64,000 nt of DNA from Rhodobacterales bacterium LSUCC0031 (lineage in GTDB: Bacteria > Pseudomonadota > Alphaproteobacteria > Rhodobacterales > Rhodobacteraceae), in assembly GCA_015689735.1 (NCBI GenBank), contig WVSP01000003.1:248001-312000 (forward strand). The letters run 5' to 3'. The translations under genes and the position numbers were made by a program. Positions 4,554 to 17,087 of the stretch are shown here, in pieces; within the stretch, counting starts at the first letter, position 1; every line of letters starts with the position of its first letter. The notes under the pieces were generated by a model. The model was not told where the DNA came from. It ran no database searches and saw only the letters and a list, made by a program, of their open reading frames with translations.

Positions 4554-5948
4554 TCAACGCTTGATCTCATAGGGAAGTGTGCCGCGCCGGTTGGGATCGA
4601 CGATAAGCTGGCGTTCCAGCGGTGGCACGGCACGCTGGTGGCACTGCGCACGATCGCAAATCCGGCAAGAGATACCGATCGGCTGGAACGCAGTTTCCCG
4701 GTCGAGATCGAGACCATCGGCATAGACCAAATCGGCGGCATGCTTGACCTCGCAGCCAAGCGAAATGGCAAAGCGGCGCTGCGGCGTACCCCATGCGCCA
4801 CCCGATTTCGAGACATCGCGCGCCAAGATCACATAGCGCACACCGTCGGGGGTTTCAGCCAGTTGGCGCAGGAAGCGGGTCGGCGTCTCGAAGGCCTGAT
4901 GGACGTTCCATAAAGGGCAGGCGCCGCCGAAGCGGGCAAATTGCAGGCGGGTTGCCGAATGGCGCTTGGTCACCGTGCCTGCTTGATCGACGCGGGCAAA
5001 GAAAAAGGGGATGCCCTTTGCGCCGGGCCGTTGCAGCGTCGAAAGGCGATGGGCCACCTGTTCGATCGAGGCGCCGAACTGGATCGAGAGGCGTTCGAGG
5101 TCATGGCGCGTCTCGCGCGCGGCGGCGGCAAAGCGGGTATAGGGCATCAACACGGCACCCGCGAAATAGTTGGCCATACCGATGCGCGCGATCTCGCGGC
5201 TGGTGTCGGATTGAAAGCGCGCAAGATCGAGTGTTGCTTCGATCAGCTGGGCTTGGCCCAAAAGCGCGTATTGGTGCAGCAGTTGAAAGCGCTGGGTTTC
5301 CGGTGCCGCGCGGGGGCTAAGCGTCAGGATGCGGGTCGCAGGGTCATAGGCGCGTACGCCTTGGCCAGCCTCGTGTCGCATGACCACGCCCATGGCCGCC
5401 AAGACATCTTGGGTATGGCTTGCCAGATCGCCCACTGCTTTCTCTGCGAAACGCTCGGCGGCGCGGTCGACGGCATCGATGTAGTTATCGCAATAATGGA
5501 AGAAATCGCGCACCTCTTCCCATGGGGAGGAGGCGGCAAAGCGGTCTTGGCCCAAGGCTTCGTCAAGCGAGGCGAGGCGCTCATGGGTTTGCCGATAGGC
5601 GCGGTGCAGGTTGAGGAAGGCGCGCGCCAAGGCAGGCGCATTCGAGGCTGCAAGCCTGAGATCGGCAAGGCCGGGGATGGTATCCGCAAAGATCGGGTCG
5701 GCCAACGCCTCGCGCATGTCGGAGATCAGCCGTTCGGCATCGCCTGCCCGCAATTCGGTGACATCGACACCACATTCCTGCGCGAGCCCCAAAACCACCG
5801 CCGTCGAGACCGGGCGGTTGTTGTTCTCCATCTGGTTGAGATAGGGCAGCGATACCGCAAGCTTGGCGGCGAAGTCTTTCTGCGTCAGGCCCAGCCGGGT
5901 ACGGATCTCGCGCAGCTTGGCACCGGCGTAGAGCTTGGAAGGGGACAT
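4554..5948 (-). CDS. pccR: PccR/ScfR-family short-chain acyl-CoA regulator
   Basis: 464 aa. An N-terminal XRE helix-turn-helix covers about residues 8-62 (REIRTRLGLTQKDFAAKL, VSLPYLNQMENNNRP). A long middle region resembles the IrrE/ImmA-like part of ScfR proteins, but the metalloprotease HExxH is not intact (LLHQYALLG). The Cys-rich C-terminus (CPLWNVH, CRICDRAQCHQRAVPP) is typical of the family. In Rhodobacter sphaeroides the homologue PccR controls propionyl-CoA carboxylase through TTTGCAAA-N4-TTTGCAAA sites. Such sites occur 17 bases upstream of this start and upstream of pccB, so it probably regulates both. The start at MSPSKLYAG was chosen over longer in-frame options because the operator lies directly upstream and the family begins here. 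Confidence 0.88.
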   Translation of the reverse strand: MSPSKLYAGAKLREIRTRLGLTQKDFAAKLAVSLPYLNQMENNNRPVSTAVVLGLAQECGVDVTELRAGDAERLISDMREALADPIFADTIPGLADLRLAASNAPALARAFLNLHRAYRQTHERLASLDEALGQDRFAASSPWEEVRDFFHYCDNYIDAVDRAAERFAEKAVGDLASHTQDVLAAMGVVMRHEAGQGVRAYDPATRILTLSPRAAPETQRFQLLHQYALLGQAQLIEATLDLARFQSDTSREIARIGMANYFAGAVLMPYTRFAAAARETRHDLERLSIQFGASIEQVAHRLSTLQRPGAKGIPFFFARVDQAGTVTKRHSATRLQFARFGGACPLWNVHQAFETPTRFLRQLAETPDGVRYVILARDVSKSGGAWGTPQRRFAISLGCEVKHAADLVYADGLDLDRETAFQPIGISCRICDRAQCHQRAVPPLERQLIVDPNRRGTLPYEIKR

Positions 5949-5964: not shown

Positions 5965-6005
5965 TTTGCAATCTTTCTTGCACGATTTGCAAACCCGTCT
6001 GCAAG
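5965..6005. promoter_or_regulatory. Predicted PccR (ScfR) operator upstream of pccR
   Basis: Two consecutive 8-N4-8 units can be read: TTTGCAAT-CTTT-CTTGCACG (5965-5984) and TTTGCAAA-CCCG-TCTGCAAG (5986-6005). They match the published ScfR motif TTTGCAAA-N4-TTTGCAAA with one perfect half. The position just before the pccR start suggests autoregulation (inference). Confidence 0.75.
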
Positions 6006-6007
6006 CC

Positions 6008-7222
6008 CTAGCGCGCCAGATCCCGATCCCGCTTGATTGTATAGGCAATTGCGACAACCGCCATAAGCGAGGCGATCAGCATGATCATGATCAGCGGATA
6101 GGCCCCATTGCCCCCTTCGAGCAAGCTGCCGGCCAAGGCCGAAAGGGCCGCACCGCCCCCCACCATCATCGCGCCACCAAGCCCGCTGGCCGTGCCGGCA
6201 AGATGGGGGCGCACCGACAACATCCCCGAGGTGGCGTTGGGCAAGACCATGCCATTGCCCAAACCCACGAACGTCATGAAGCCAAAAAAGACAAAAGCCG
6301 TCTTGAAGCCGATCAGGAACATCACGAGCGACATCACCAGACCACTGGCGGAAATCAGCGCCCCTGCAAGGATCATGGTATTGATGCCAAGCCGCATGGA
6401 ATAACGGCCCGAGATCCAGTTGCCAAAGAAATAGCCCAAGGCCGGGGCGCCAAAAAAGAAACCGACCTCGGTGGGCGAGAGGTGGAAGACCTGCGAACCG
6501 ACATAAGGCGCGCCGCCGAGATAGGCGAAAAATGCACCCGATGCGAAGGCTGCCGCCAAGCAATATCCCCAAAAGCGACGCGAGGCCAAAAGCTCGGGAT
6601 ATTCGCGGATCTGGGCAGCAAAGCCGCCCGATTTTTGCACTGCCGTCTCGCCCAAGTCGCGCCATGTCAGGGCCAAGACCAAAAGACCCAAGGTAAAAAG
6701 CATCCAGAAATTCGCTTGCCAGCCGAAGCGTTCATCCAGCACGCCGCCAATGGCGGGGCCGATCATCGGGACAATCGCCATGCCCATGGTGACATAGCCA
6801 ATCTGACTTGCCGCTTGATCGGCCGGATACATGTCGCGAACCACCGCCCGCCCCAGTACAAGGCCCGCCACCACAACGGCCTGCACCATGCGGAACAACA
6901 AGAAAACTTCGATACTGGGGGCAAAGATACACCCCAGCGTCGCCACTAGGAAAATCGCAACGCCGCCAAGCAACACAGGCCGCCGCCCGTAGCGATCCGA
7001 AATCGGTCCGATAAAGATCTGCAAGACAGCATTCACGCCCAAATAGAGAGCAACCGACAGCTGCATCAGCCGATAATCGGTCGCGAAATAGGTGGTCATG
7101 CGCGGCAATGAGGGCAGGAAAATATTCATCGACAGCGCACCGAGGCCGGTGAGCAGGATCAAGGTAAAGATATGCGGTGGGGTGGTGCGGTCGAGAAACC
7201 GCACGGTCACTTGGCTTGCCAT
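6008..7222 (-). CDS. Bcr/CflA-family MFS multidrug exporter
   Basis: 404 aa, about twelve hydrophobic segments. The MFS signature DRYGRRPVLLGG follows the second helix, and RAVVRDMYPADQAASQIG is characteristic of the Bcr/CflA subfamily that expels drugs such as bicyclomycin or, in some cases, cysteine. It starts back-to-back with pccB and shares the 259-base regulatory gap with it; it ends 59 bases before pccR. The PccR operators in that gap might influence it too, but no acyl-CoA link is known for the family. Confidence 0.87.
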   Translation of the reverse strand: MASQVTVRFLDRTTPPHIFTLILLTGLGALSMNIFLPSLPRMTTYFATDYRLMQLSVALYLGVNAVLQIFIGPISDRYGRRPVLLGGVAIFLVATLGCIFAPSIEVFLLFRMVQAVVVAGLVLGRAVVRDMYPADQAASQIGYVTMGMAIVPMIGPAIGGVLDERFGWQANFWMLFTLGLLVLALTWRDLGETAVQKSGGFAAQIREYPELLASRRFWGYCLAAAFASGAFFAYLGGAPYVGSQVFHLSPTEVGFFFGAPALGYFFGNWISGRYSMRLGINTMILAGALISASGLVMSLVMFLIGFKTAFVFFGFMTFVGLGNGMVLPNATSGMLSVRPHLAGTASGLGGAMMVGGGAALSALAGSLLEGGNGAYPLIMIMLIASLMAVVAIAYTIKRDRDLAR

Positions 7223-7316
7223 GGTGACGGGTTAAGGGCTCGGCGCGGCGGGGTCCAGCCCCACGTTCGTGCGCAGGTGCAGACAGGCGTGTGCGCATGG
7301 CACCAAGCAATGATAA

Positions 7317-7376
7317 TTCGCAATTTTGCAAAAACATTAACATTGCCGCAAATGTGTTTGCAAATATGCGCAATCT
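7317..7376. promoter_or_regulatory. Predicted PccR operator region upstream of pccB
   Basis: Two perfect TTTGCAAA octamers lie at 7325-7332 and 7357-7364, 32 bases apart (about three helical turns). Each has degenerate partners: GCCGCAAA-TGTG precedes the second with the expected 4-base spacer, and TATG-CGCAATCT follows it. The site is about 110-160 bases upstream of the pccB start. A perfect 7-bp inverted repeat CTCGCGC-TTT-GCGCGAG follows at 7379-7395. Confidence 0.75.
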
Positions 7377-7481
7377 GACTCGCGCTTTGCGCGAGCCGGG
7401 CCTAGGGTCCGCGGCAATCAGGAGTTCGCCGCGCGATCGCGCCAACCTCCGCAGCGCCAGACCGATGGGGAAGGGACGGGC

Positions 7482-9014
7482 ATGAAGGACATTTTGCAAG
7501 AACTTGAGAACCGCCGCGGCGAGGCGCGCCTGGGCGGCGGTGCCAAGCGGATCGAAGCGCAGCATGCCAAGGGCAAGCTGACCGCGCGGGAACGCATCGA
7601 GTTGCTGCTCGACGAAGGCTCTTTCGAAGAATACGACATGTTCGTCACCCATCGCTGCACCGATTTCGGCATGGCACAATCCAAACCTCGCGGCGATGGC
7701 GTCGTGACCGGTTGGGGTACGATCAATGGCCGCATGGTCTATGTGTTTAGCCAGGATTTCACCGTTCTCGGCGGATCGGTCAGCGAAACCCACGCGGCCA
7801 AGATCTGCAAGATCATGGATATGGCGATGCAGAACGGCGCGCCGGTCATCGGCATCAACGATAGCGGCGGGGCGCGCATCCAAGAGGGTGTATCGTCGCT
7901 GGCAGCCTATGGCGAAGTGTTCCAGCGCAACATCGAGGCCTCGGGCGTGGTGCCGCAGATCAGCCTGATCATGGGCCCCTGCGCAGGTGGCGCGGTCTAT
8001 TCCCCCGCGATGACCGACTTCATCTTCATGGTCAAAGACAGTTCCTACATGTTCGTCACCGGCCCCGATGTGGTGAAAACCGTCACCAATGAGGTTGTTA
8101 CTGCCGAGGAATTGGGCGGTGCCACGACCCATACCCGCAAATCGAGTGTTGCCGATGGCGCCTTTGAGAACGATGTCGAAGCGCTGAGCGAAGTGCGCCG
8201 TTTGATCGATTTCCTGCCGCTGTCAAACCGCGAGAAGCCACCCGTGCGCCCCTTCTACGACAGCCCGGACCGCATAGAGGAAAGCCTTGATACGCTGATC
8301 CCCGACAACCCGAACAAGCCCTATGATATGAAGGAATTGATCCTGAAACTGGCGGATGAGGGCGATTTTTACGAGATTCAGGAAGATTTCGCCAAGAACA
8401 TCATCACTGGCTTCATCCGGCTCGAAGGGCAGACGGTGGGCGTGGTCGCCAACCAGCCGATGGTGTTGGCGGGTGTCTTGGACATCGACAGCGCGCGCAA
8501 GGCCGCCCGCTTCGTGCGCTTTTGCGACTGCTTCGAAATTCCGCTGCTCACACTGGTCGATGTGCCGGGCTTTCTACCCGGCGTGACGCAGGAATATAAC
8601 GGGGTCATCAAGCATGGTGCCAAGCTCTTGTTTGCCTATGGCGAGGCGACTGTTCCCAAGGTTACCGTCATCACGCGCAAGGCCTATGGCGGGGCATATG
8701 TGGTGATGTCGTCCAAGCATTTGCGCGGTGACATCAACTATGCCTGGCCCACATCCGAGGTTGCTGTGATGGGGGCCAAGGGAGCCACGGAAATCCTGTA
8801 TCGGTCGGAACTGGGCGACCCCGACAAGATCGCCGCACGCGCCAAGGAATACGAGGATCGTTTCGCAAATCCCTTCGTCGCGGCCGAGCGTGGCTTCATC
8901 GACGAGGTGATCCAGCCGCGGTCCACCCGCAAGCGGGTTTGCCGGGCATTTGCGCAGCTGCGCACAAAGCGCAAACAGATGCCGTGGAAAAAGCACGATA
9001 ATATTCCGCTGTAG
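7482..9014 (+). CDS. pccB: Propionyl-CoA carboxylase beta chain (carboxyltransferase)
   Basis: 510 aa, normal length for PccB. The N-terminus has the family pattern [20 protein letters not shown], and the carboxyltransferase N- and C-halves carry [24 protein letters not shown] and VDVPGFLPG. It transfers the carboxyl group from biotin on PccA to propionyl-CoA, giving (S)-methylmalonyl-CoA. An AAGGGA RBS precedes the ATG. Probable PccR operators upstream imply induction by propionyl-CoA or its precursors. pccA lies 2.3 kb downstream on the same strand, separated by small genes. Confidence 0.95.
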
Positions 9015-9077: not shown

Positions 9078-9488
9078 ATGACTGAGCCAATCTTTCACAT
9101 GATCACCGGCGGCCCCCGCCCCGTCGCGCCCTTTTCGCATGCGGTCGAGGTGGATGGCTGGGTGATCCTGACCGGCCAGATGCCCACCGACCCCACAGCC
9201 CCCGATGCACCATTACCCGAGGGGGTGGCGGCGCAAACGCGGGCCGTGATGCGCAACCTTGAGATCGTACTCAAGGGTGTCGGCCTTGATCTGTCCCACG
9301 TCGTGCAGATGCGCGCCTATCTGACGGAATTCGAACGCGACTATGCGGCTTTCAACACGACCTATCAGGGCTTTTTCCCGCCCGATCGGCGGCCCGCGCG
9401 CACCACGGTGGGCGTTACGGCACTGGCCGTCGGGGCCTTGGTCGAGATCGATTGCATCGCCCGCCGCCCAGAGCCGTCACGGGGATGA
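9078..9488 (+). CDS. RidA-family protein
   Basis: 136 aa. An AAGGAG RBS (9066-9071) precedes the ATG. The YjgF/RidA pattern is visible in the N-terminal PFSHAVEVDGWVILTGQMP and the C-terminal RPARTTVGVTALAVGALVEIDCIA, which includes the usual Arg of the active site. RidA proteins hydrolyse reactive enamine/imine intermediates; some members have other ligands. The stop overlaps the next start (ATGA), indicating coupling with the downstream secreted protein. Confidence 0.88.
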   Translation: MTEPIFHMITGGPRPVAPFSHAVEVDGWVILTGQMPTDPTAPDAPLPEGVAAQTRAVMRNLEIVLKGVGLDLSHVVQMRAYLTEFERDYAAFNTTYQGFFPPDRRPARTTVGVTALAVGALVEIDCIARRPEPSRG

Positions 9489-11343: not shown

Positions 11344-13389
<2,046 letters not shown>

Positions 13390-14062: not shown

Positions 14063-14992
14063 ATGGATATTTTGCTTCACCTTGGCGCGCATCGCAATGC
14101 GACCACAACATTGCAACACATGATGGGCCAGAGCCAAACGCGCCTGACAGCGGCAGGCTTTGGTTACTGGGGGCCGAAGCGATTGCGTGCGGGGCTTTTT
14201 ACCGGGCTTTACGGCGGCGATAATGCGCTGTTGCTGCGGAAATCAGGCCGGGCAAGGGCGCGTGTCAGGTTGCAAGCACAGCAAGCCGCCGACCATGGCA
14301 TCGCGCTTTTGTTCGTGAGCGAAGAGAATATGCTCGGCACGATGCGCCGATTGCTTAACCAAACCCGGCTGTATGACGGTGCCGGGGCGCGGGTGGCACG
14401 CTTTGCCGAAAGCTTCGGCGGTCATCGGGTGACGCTGGGCCTGTCGATCCGCTGCTATGACGCGTTCTGGACCTCGGTCATTGGCTGGCGGATGCGCCAT
14501 GGCGGTATGCTGCCCGATGCCACGCTCTGCGAGCGGCTGGTCACCCAGCCCCGGCGCTGGCGGCATGTGATCACCGATCTGGCCCAAGCCATGCCCGGTC
14601 TCACCATCTATGTCTGGACGCATGAAGCGATGGCGGGTCGCCCACATCACGTGATCGCAGCGCTCAGCGGTGTGCGGCTTGCCCTGCATGGGCAAGATGC
14701 ATGGTGCAACCCGACACCCGACGCCGCGCGATTGATCGCAGAATGTCGCAAAGCCGGTCTGACCGGGGCCGAGGGGCTTGGCCAACGGGCGGGACGTTTC
14801 ATGCCCTTCAGTGCGTATCAACGCGCGATCTTGCGCGCGCATTATCAAGAAGACCTCGATTGGCTGGCTGCCGGTGCAGGTGGACTTGCCACATATATCG
14901 ACAGCGCAGGGACGAAGACCCGACGCAGGACAGGACAAGGAAGAGGACGACCCGATGACCAAGACGATGGATGCCTGGCGCAAGCTGGCTGA
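14063..14992 (+). CDS. Sulfotransferase-like hypothetical protein
   Basis: 309 aa. The N-terminal [18 protein letters not shown] resembles the phosphosulfate-binding loop of the sulfotransferase-like proteins (usual form HxGxxKTGTTxLQ), with Arg/Asn changes. FVSEENMLG and a later RPHHVIAAL helix fit the same fold. The substrate is unknown and activity is not certain given the altered loop. Its 3' end overlaps the start of the mutase gene by 38 bases, so they are probably cotranscribed; a GGAG-like RBS precedes the ATG. Confidence 0.68.
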
Positions 14993-17087
14993 AAAGGAAC
15001 TGCGTGGGCGCAGCCCTGACAGCCTGACGTGGGACACGCTCGAGGGGATCGCGGTCAAGCCGCTCTATACGGCCGCGGATAGCGAGGGTCTTGCCCATCT
15101 CGACAGCTTGCCGGGCTTTGCGCCCTTTACCCGCGGGGTCAAGGCCACGATGTATGCGGGCCGCCCCTGGACCATCCGCCAATATGCAGGTTTCTCAACG
15201 GCCGAGGCGTCGAATGCCTTTTACCGCAAGGCGCTGGCCGCTGGCCAACAGGGCGTTTCCGTCGCCTTCGACCTGGCCACGCATCGCGGCTATGATAGCG
15301 ATCACCCCCGCGTGATCGGCGATGTCGGCAAAGCGGGTGTCGCGATCGACAGCGTCGAGGACATGAAAATCCTTTTCGACGGTATCCCGCTTGACCAAGT
15401 CAGCGTCTCGATGACCATGAACGGCGCAGTGATCCCGATTTTGGCGAATTTCATCGTCACCGGCGAGGAGCAAGGCCACGACAAGACGGTGCTGTCGGGG
15501 ACCATCCAGAACGACATCCTCAAGGAGTTCATGGTCCGCAACACCTATATCTACCCGCCCGAACCCTCGATGCGGATCATCTCGGACATCATCGCCTATA
15601 CCTCGGACAACATGCCGAAGTTCAATTCGATCTCGATCTCGGGCTACCACATGCAGGAGGCGGGGGCGAATTTGGTGCAGGAATTGGCCTATACGCTGGC
15701 CGATGGGCGCGAATATGTCCGCGCGGCGATGGCCGCGGGTATGGATGTCGATAAATTCGCAGGCCGCCTGTCGTTCTTTTTCGCCATCGGGATGAATTTC
15801 TTCATGGAAATCGCCAAGCTGCGCGCCGCGCGCACGCTATGGCACCGCATCATGACGGAATTCGGCGCCAAGGATGAGCGCTCCAAGATGCTACGCACCC
15901 ATTGCCAGACGAGCGGTGTCAGCTTGCAGGAGCAAGACCCCTACAACAACGTCATCCGCACCGCCTATGAGGCGATGAGCGCGGTGTTGGGCGGCACGCA
16001 AAGCCTGCACACCAATGCGCTGGACGAGGCGATCGCGCTGCCCACCGAATTCTCGGCCCGCATCGCGCGCAATACTCAGTTGATCTTGCAAGAAGAAACC
16101 GGGGTGACAAAGGTCGTCGATCCGCTGGCAGGCTCTTACTACATTGAAAGCTTGACGGGCGCGCTGATCGATCAGGCATGGGCCTTGATGCAAGAAGTCG
16201 AAGAGATGGGCGGCATGACCAAGGCGGTTGCGACCGGCATGCCCAAGCTGCGCATCGAAGAATCTGCGGCCAAGCGTCAGGCGATGATCGACCGGGGCGA
16301 GGATGTGATCGTCGGCGTCAACAAGTACCGCAAGGACAGCGAAGACCCGATCGATATTCTCGAAATCGACAATGACGCCGTGCGCGAGGCCCAAGTCGCA
16401 CGCCTTGCCCGTATGCGCGCCAGCCGCGATCAGGCGGCTTGCGATGCGGCGCTGGCCGAACTGGAACGGCGCGCAGGCCATGGTGGCAATCTGCTCGAAG
16501 CGGCGGTCGAAGCCGCGCGCGCACGGGCAAGTGTGGGAGAAATCAGCATGGCGATGGAAAAAGTGTTCGGCCGCCACCGGGCCGAGGTCAAGACGCTCGC
16601 CGGTGTTTATGGCGCAGCCTATGAGGGCGATATGGGCTTTGCCGCGATCCAGGCCGATGTCGAAGCCTTCGCCGAGCAAGAGGGCCGCCGCCCTCGGATG
16701 CTGGTCGTCAAGATGGGCCAAGATGGGCATGACCGCGGCGCCAAGGTGATCGCGACTGCATTTGCCGATATCGGGTTTGACGTCGATGTTGGCCCGCTGT
16801 TCCAGACACCCGAGGAGGCGGCTCAAGACGCCATCGACAATGATGTGCATGTGGTCGGCATCTCTTCGCAGGCGGCCGGACACAAGACCTTGGCCCCGAA
16901 ACTGATCGCCGCCCTGGAAGCCGCTGGCGCAGGCGAGATCATCGTGATCTGTGGCGGCGTGATCCCGCAGCAAGATTACGACTTCCTCAAGTCCGCCGGC
17001 GTCAAGGCGATCTTCGGACCCGGCACCAATATCCCGGATGCCGCCAAAGACATCCTCGCACTGATCCGCGCCGCCCGCGCCGCCTGA
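14955..17087 (+). CDS. scpA: Methylmalonyl-CoA mutase (large, single-chain type)
   Basis: 710 aa. The start at 14955 ([16 protein letters not shown]) follows GGAAGAGG; longer frames would read into the upstream gene. The catalytic TIM barrel covers about residues 1-520 ([37 protein letters not shown]). A C-terminal cobalamin-binding domain has D590-x-H592-x-x-G595, with H592 as lower axial ligand, and a [10 protein letters not shown] motif and GGVIP loop. It converts (R)-methylmalonyl-CoA to succinyl-CoA using adenosylcobalamin. The epimerase and the MeaB-type chaperone are not in the window. Confidence 0.95.

Follow-up and report, generated by a model that had tools for sequence, protein, structure and literature searches.

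Predicted PccR operators at pccR and pccB, and a 32-bp octamer spacing kept at the pccB promoters of relatives

We report that a 32-bp spacing between TTTGCAAA-like octamers is the usual arrangement at pccB in the bacterial family to which the window belongs (the window being the whole 64,000-nucleotide stretch of DNA analysed here), and that the operator tracks its putative regulator, PccR, across genomes. The predicted sites at pccR and pccB are very probably real. We consider it likely that PccR is an acyl-CoA-responsive, probably tetrameric regulator of the ScfR type that binds a multi-box octamer operator, activates the pcc operon and limits its own level. PccR, probably tetramer-forming, would bind an operator of several TTTGCAAA-like octamers that at pccB comprises boxes at -40 and -32, a half-site at -12, a box at 0 and a degenerate box at +8, all just upstream of the -35 element, the two strongest boxes being three helical turns apart. 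Bound PccR would activate the pcc operon upon build-up of propionyl-CoA or a related ester, and octamers overlapping the pccR promoter would allow PccR to hold down its own level. The analysis establishes the sites, the constancy of their spacing, where they stand relative to the promoters of relatives, and their joint occurrence with PccR; we infer binding, the geometry of the tetramer, the ligand and whether each gene is activated or repressed. Control of pccB by PccR is described in PMC12632250. The known picture of PccR is not overturned, and this type of control was already known: the locus is a conserved instance of an established regulon whose architecture is described here in new detail, so that a short motif becomes a testable operator map with boxes at fixed distances from the pccB promoter.

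The relevant genes of the window are:

4554..5948, minus strand: pccR, ScfR-family regulator of 464 aa, with HTH, IrrE-like domain and ScfRs C-terminal domain
6008..7222, minus strand: MFS efflux gene of the Bcr/CflA family, lying between pccR and pccB and divergent from pccB
7482..9014, plus strand: pccB, propionyl-CoA carboxylase carboxyltransferase subunit
11344..13389, plus strand: pccA, biotin-carrying subunit (PCC_BT domain)
14778..17087, plus strand: mcm open frame, methylmalonyl-CoA mutase, with the real start probably inside the frame

By its sequence, the window regulator is a PccR-type ScfR. A domain search placed the ScfRs domain (PF09856) at residues 304-460 with 235.3 bits against a cut-off of 24, and the N-terminus matched HTH (PF01381, 41 bits) and IrrE-like (Peptidase_M78, PF06114, 73 bits) domains. 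The protein aligns with PrpR (6cyy) at 5e-84 and keeps both the C-x2-C-x4-C motif and the GAF-domain cysteine, which together hold a 4Fe-4S cluster in PrpR (motif named in PMC6765138). The RamB equivalog model (NCBIfam NF038139) gave 423.8 bits, below its 700-bit cut-off. Homology to PrpR and RamB suggests that window PccR would sense CoA esters such as acyl-CoA. The window has the gene order pccR-bcr-pccB, and all three genes are present in 65 of 80 loci of relatives. In these 65 loci the Bcr/CflA-family efflux gene is kept between pccR and pccB; a RidA/L-PSP family gene lies inside the pcc cluster of the window (9078-9488).

The octamers of the two upstream regions are:

5965..5972: pccR operator box TTTGCAAT (ATTGCAAA towards pccR), +21 from the next octamer
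5977..5984: degenerate half-site CTTGCACG, 3 mismatches, unconserved across the family set
5986..5993: pccR operator perfect octamer TTTGCAAA
5998..6005: half-site TCTGCAAG (CTTGCAGA towards pccR), like the CTTG -35 element of relatives but 2 bp shifted
7317..7324: pccB operator box TTCGCAAT at -40
7325..7332: pccB operator perfect octamer at -32
7345..7352: pccB operator half-site GCCGCAAA at -12, 3 mismatches, the 8-N4-8 partner of 7357-7364
7357..7364: pccB operator perfect octamer at 0
7365..7372: degenerate box TATGCGCA at +8, 3 mismatches

The original prediction had placed two 8-N4-8 repeats before pccR and two perfect octamers 32 bases apart before pccB, and both features are in place. 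The pccR repeats are TTTGCAAT-CTTT-CTTGCACG at 5965-5984 and TTTGCAAA-CCCG-TCTGCAAG at 5986-6005; one of their four half-sites is perfect, and the other three carry 1, 3 and 2 mismatches. The perfect pccB octamers at 7325-7332 and 7357-7364 lie 32 bp apart, start to start. Two further sites had gone unremarked, namely the TTCGCAAT box at 7317-7324 and a degenerate tandem 8-N4-8 unit, GCCGCAAA-TGTG-TTTGCAAA, at 7345-7364.

Perfect TTTGCAAA octamers occur three times in the window, all within 1.4 kb, where 0.89 are expected. The count by itself is mildly unusual, since 6 of 100 shuffles of the window reach three or more. This mild excess is what speaks for A+T-rich octamers having clustered in a promoter by chance; that explanation is contradicted by the conservation of fixed spacing amid near-chance identity and by the co-occurrence with PccR, both described below, and its probability is practically negligible. 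The unusual feature is the arrangement of the octamers, not their bare number. The 2.98-Mb genome holds 41 perfect octamers, and no two of them other than the pccB pair lie within 1 kb of each other; the expectation is 0.027 pairs within 50 bp. The pattern TTTGCAA-N25-TTTGCAA has its single exact occurrence at 7325/7357, with no other place in the genome at 0 or 1 mismatch and 11 rows at 2 mismatches. When 400 bases were read on each side of the other 38 perfect octamers, none had a partner (≤2 mismatches) at +/-32; the octamer of L126 had a partner with 2 mismatches at -40, and that of L119 had one at -12. The 8-N4-8 pattern at ≤3 mismatches was found at 11 places genome-wide, versus 5 for a reversed control pattern, and two of the 11 are in this locus (5986-6005 and 7345-7364). 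A genome-wide motif search had been proposed as a check on whether unrelated promoters carry the motif just as often; for the paired motif they do not, the exact 32-bp pair being unique.

From 80 loci of relatives we obtained 66 pccB upstream regions and, with the window, aligned 67 on the proximal octamer (position 0). This octamer is present in 67 of 67 by construction, as the anchor was required to have ≤1 mismatch; it is perfect in 62 and has one mismatch in 5. An octamer with ≤2 mismatches stands at -32 in 49 of the 67 promoters and at -40 in 52, with at least one of the two boxes in 61 and both in 40; the -32 box is missing at this threshold in 18 of 67. A +8 box (≤2 mismatches) was detected in 41 of 67. 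Upstream of the anchor, the best octamer falls at -32 in 42 promoters, at -40 in 18 and at some other offset in 7, and in none of the 67 is it at -31 or -33. After thinning to 52 promoters less than 70% identical, the -32 and -40 boxes were each present in 38 of 52; at 57 other offsets the share averaged 0.3% and never exceeded 5.8%. In pairwise comparison the sequence between the boxes is 26% identical, which is near chance, against 68% for the -40 and -32 boxes and 98% for the anchor box. Selection, rather than shared ancestry alone, thus maintains the spacing. Among 13 genomes of the window's genus, the -32 box is present in all 13 and the -40 box in 8. The 32-bp pair at pccB had been read as differing from the published single tandem motif; this is not borne out in that form, as the degenerate 8-N4-8 unit is present at 7345-7364 and the pair is usual among relatives (49/67, and 13/13 in the genus).

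The spacing hardly varies and therefore fits direct contact by one multimer, suggesting a rigid, same-face register at pccB rather than a loop. Looping between the two pccB octamers had been raised in the original prediction. A distance of 32 bp is far under usual DNA loop sizes and would be served by direct contact; together with the absence of best octamers at -31 or -33 (0/67), this makes such a loop unlikely. A loop might instead join the pccB and pccR operators across the 1.3 kb that separates them, and relatives of the ScfR type form tetramers (PMC6765138, PMC10370305). However, 14 of the 80 loci have no pccB found beside pccR, some being cut by contig ends (L004, L008, L011, L015, L022, L030, L034, L037, L043, L048, L054, L069, L074 and L080), and all 10 pccR upstream regions extracted from these 14 nevertheless carry octamers. 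Looping in either form is, in our estimate, very improbable.

PccR of Rhodobacter (Cereibacter) sphaeroides, in the 2015 work of Carter and Alber, reportedly has a TTTGCAAA-N4-TTTGCAAA tandem motif upstream of pccB, and the 8-N4-8 unit is said to be the site tested in that study. The window resembles that system in having an ScfR regulator of pccB (predicted here) and a candidate tandem octamer unit upstream of pccB. Unlike that motif, the window tandem is degenerate, and a perfect -32 octamer, a -40 box and sites in the pccR promoter region stand in addition to it. A rival arrangement has two independent PccR complexes at pccB, the 8-N4-8 unit (7345-7364) activating and the -40/-32 boxes serving as a separate auxiliary site that tunes affinity, with no rigid joint complex. 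The reported test site is present here in degenerate form, one relative (L101) has a perfect 8-N4-8 unit upstream of pccB in addition to TTTGCGAT at -32, and the -12 half-site (≤2 mismatches) occurs in 7 of 13 members of the window's genus. Yet among the 67 promoters a half-site is found at -12 in only 3 and at -11 in 21, against 49 at -32 and 52 at -40, and independent sites should tolerate drift in distance, whereas no best upstream octamer lies at -31 or -33. We regard two separate complexes as unlikely and favour a single multimer in rigid register. Of 394 family genomes, 5 contain a perfect TTTGCAAA-N4-TTTGCAAA unit, and in a single one of these 5 it stands upstream of pccB.

We built an operator profile from 60 of the 67 pccB promoters, leaving out L041, L053, L056, L059, L061, L070 and L076, and the profile then matched all seven of these. 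In the window's genome, where 150 of 534 candidates were scored, the profile matched the pccB operator with E 1.2e-11, and no other place reached E <0.1; profile matches at pccB arise partly by construction, because the training set consisted of pccB promoters including that of the window. On the opposite strand of the pccB operator (7369-7288) the profile scores 19.2 bits, and a CTTGG-like element lies on the bcr side, which would suit octamers that serve the divergent bcr gene instead of pccB. The opposite-strand match is largely due to the near-palindromic nature of the boxes, though, and columns -50 to -43, as far as the bcr side was measured, hold at most 0.25 bits. Promoter elements stand at a fixed distance on the pccB side, and the element also precedes prpE and bioY in relatives (both below). 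Service to bcr is thus very improbable, and we retain pccB as the target.

The operator tracks the regulator across genomes. In 61 genomes, it was present in 29 of the 30 with PccR and in 0 of the 31 without, at thresholds (operator E 1e-5 or better; PccR at least 60% identical) both chosen after viewing the tables. Counting one genome per genus within the family, with pccB present, 16 have both, one has PccR only (G004), none has the operator only and 7 have neither. pccB directly follows the operator in 28 of the 29 genomes (loci L106 and L147-L173); in the other, G023, the match is about 130 bases from the end of its sequence, and no pccB was found at the threshold used. Two weak profile matches (E 0.006-0.007) occurred among the 31 genomes without PccR: G017, whose PccR is 55% identical, has two adjacent octamers farther upstream of pccB, and for G410 (0.006) neither a PccR match nor a target was identified. 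We also compared the best 32-bp pair upstream of pccB in 22 genomes, with 141 upstream bases only for G021 and start codons placed inexactly for G416, G422 and G424. The best pair has 5 to 7 mismatches in the seven genera with neither regulator nor operator, 2 in two PccR-bearing controls, 8 in G004 and 4 to 9 in 12 genomes outside the family. In G004 (L236), PccR (65%) adjoins pccB, yet octamers are lacking upstream of pccB. G011 (L219) keeps the divergent bcr-pccB arrangement, with no PccR match and no octamer (≤1 mismatch) in 300 bases; it perhaps represents a natural loss of both regulator and operator. Outside the family, G416 (L253) has a 46% identical ScfR gene near pccB and one perfect octamer upstream, with no 32-bp pair. 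Since the locus (L) and genome (G) sets overlap, L001 and G404 for example having the same pccB upstream region, the two are not independent. Conservation, co-occurrence and homology taken together uphold the original prediction of PccR operators at both genes, and hence of a putative autoregulatory circuit.

A profile match (E 0.001 or better) was found in 301 of 384 family genomes; among the 83 without a match, PccR is established as absent or distant in 7 genera. The 22 genomes with two matches were searched again, and the second match proved to be the first site read on its opposite strand in 10 and a different place in 12. In three of the 384 genomes (L276, L277 and L278) a PccR-type element precedes the propionate-CoA ligase gene prpE, with matches of 1.9e-12 (G003), 1.6e-11 (G069) and 8.3e-11 (G103). 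All three sites reproduce the CTTT at +22 and the TA---T at +46, and their -32 boxes have 1, 2 and 3 mismatches, the last being that of L278. For each of the three genes the best-scoring model is propionate-CoA ligase, whose curated cut-off was not reached because the matches are to fragments. In two of the 384 genomes (L280 and L287) a 32-bp element precedes bioY, with matches of 3.9e-9 (G082) and 6.5e-4 (G219); the latter is at a level where chance matches also occur, and counts mainly because the same gene is strongly matched in G082. BioY (biotin transporter, PF02632) scores above cut-off in both. Both bioY sites have the 32-bp pair as well as the +8 box and lack the pccB-like promoter elements (CTTT at +22, TA---T at +46). 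Biotin, the substrate of bioY, is the cofactor of the carboxylase controlled by PccR.

Other second matches are less readily assigned. One (G110) precedes a second pccB start (L261 and L279, judged by eye, both near contig ends), and one (G197) lies 1.4 kb from the pccB site and, from distance alone, is perhaps at pccR. G221 (L284) has a 32-bp pair without a clear gene. Those of G326, G245 and G248 (L285, L286 and L288) have no sensible target, and therefore matches near E 1e-4 can be chance. In G086 (L282), a cluster of octamers with 36-bp spacing stands before a gene that by eye resembles a chemotaxis receptor.

The placement of the boxes relative to the promoters suggests opposite signs of control, activation at pccB and autorepression at pccR. 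The pccB promoter elements in the window are:

7379..7384, plus strand: pccB -35 position, weak here (CTCGCG), where the family consensus is CTTTGG-like
7403..7408, plus strand: likely pccB -10 element TAGGGT, at the same 46-bp distance from the proximal octamer that relatives show

In relatives, the pccB promoter consists of a CTTTGG-like -35 at +22 and, after a 17-bp gap, a TAkGGT-like -10 at +46. A joint test (CTT at +22 plus a -10 match at +46) succeeded in 47 of 67 promoters and in 0 or 1 when slid. The pccB boxes are upstream of the -35, and would therefore occupy an activator-like position. For pccR, we used 77 upstream regions, 76 from the 80 loci plus the window; L004, L015, L037 and L069 were excluded, their match starting at residue 5. 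An octamer at ≤1 mismatch is present in all 77, and in 46 it is flanked by TTG at -13 and TA---T at +10, placing it inside the 17-bp spacer, versus 0 to 6 of 77 when the test was slid. An octamer between -35 and -10 in relatives is in a repressor's position, which would therefore imply autorepression. The joint test failed in 20 of 67 pccB and 31 of 77 pccR promoters. The window lacks the pccR -10 of relatives (TA---T at +10), and inspection by eye revealed no convincing substitute; the outer pccR half-site CTTGC resembles the family -35 element, 2 bp shifted. Because the pccB -35 and the pccR -10 are weak in the genus, the promoter positions rest on alignment to relatives.

A second pccR octamer, ending in GCAAA, lies at +30 in 48, at +22 in 21 and at +21 in 10 of the 77 regions. 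Spacing at pccR is thus variable between promoters (21, 22, 29 or 30), unlike that at pccB; in the window's genus it is 21 bp in 13 of 13 sequences. The 8-N4-8 units that had been described before pccR exist in the window, but not as a conserved unit, as what recurs in the 77 promoters is an octamer with a partner at +30 or at +21/22. By our inference, the pccB (32/40) and pccR (22/30) distances are offset from each other by 10 bp, or roughly one turn of the helix.

Related regulators offer points of comparison. RamB of Paracoccus denitrificans is, according to PMC10370305, an ScfR activator that requires both of two 14-bp boxes, and a tetramer that converts to dimers in the presence of CoA esters. 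These boxes form a direct repeat with a distance of 32 bp, by our arithmetic from 14-bp boxes and an 18-bp spacer in the 80-bp test DNA (PMC10370305, Table 3), the same as that of the two boxes at window pccB. Unlike window PccR, this RamB has TGACAA-core boxes and a glyoxylate cycle operon as its target (PMC10370305). The same distance with unlike box sequences suggests a geometry imposed by the protein. Truncated PrpR of Mycobacterium tuberculosis is a tetramer that binds CoA (PMC6765138). PMC6765138 and PMC3420887 describe TTTGCAAA palindromes and C-terminal iron-sulfur cysteines for PrpR; likewise, the window octamer is TTTGCAAA and the cysteines are kept in window PccR. The PrpR site differs from the window operator in consisting of two palindromes one base apart, and its targets, unlike those of window PccR, are methylcitrate cycle genes, icl1 and ramB (PMC6765138 and PMC3420887). 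Opposite signs of control at different genes would accord with what is described for these relatives, because PrpR activates some genes and represses ramB, and Mycobacterium RamB is reported as a repressor of its own gene (both PMC3420887).

A bolder reading, which we hold somewhat less likely than not, is that a 32-bp, three-turn register is a general geometry by which ScfR tetramers bind DNA, shared by PccR (TTTGCAAA) and RamB (TGACAA), that boxes upstream of the -35 activate while buried boxes, often one turn closer (22/30 vs 32/40), repress, and that the PccR regulon of some relatives may include prpE (propionate activation) and bioY (biotin uptake). Such a concrete geometric rule would link two ScfR subgroups with different recognition sequences, and bioY as a target for cofactor supply would widen the regulon beyond a single operon in some species. 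Among the matches listed from the open-licence literature, we found no description of the 32-bp PccR arrangement or of a link between PccR and bioY, and a term search of PMC5343134 returned no mention of PccR.

The window's genome encodes one further ScfR-domain protein, 25% identical to PccR. This protein (L086:1501-2856, ~25% identity) has the C-x2-C-x4-C motif, and the neighbours of its gene, read by eye, are FAD-type and transport-type genes. Finally, a TGTCCAT-like string recurs upstream of the pccB operator in the pccB-bcr intergenic regions of many relatives (e.g. L026 and L072).
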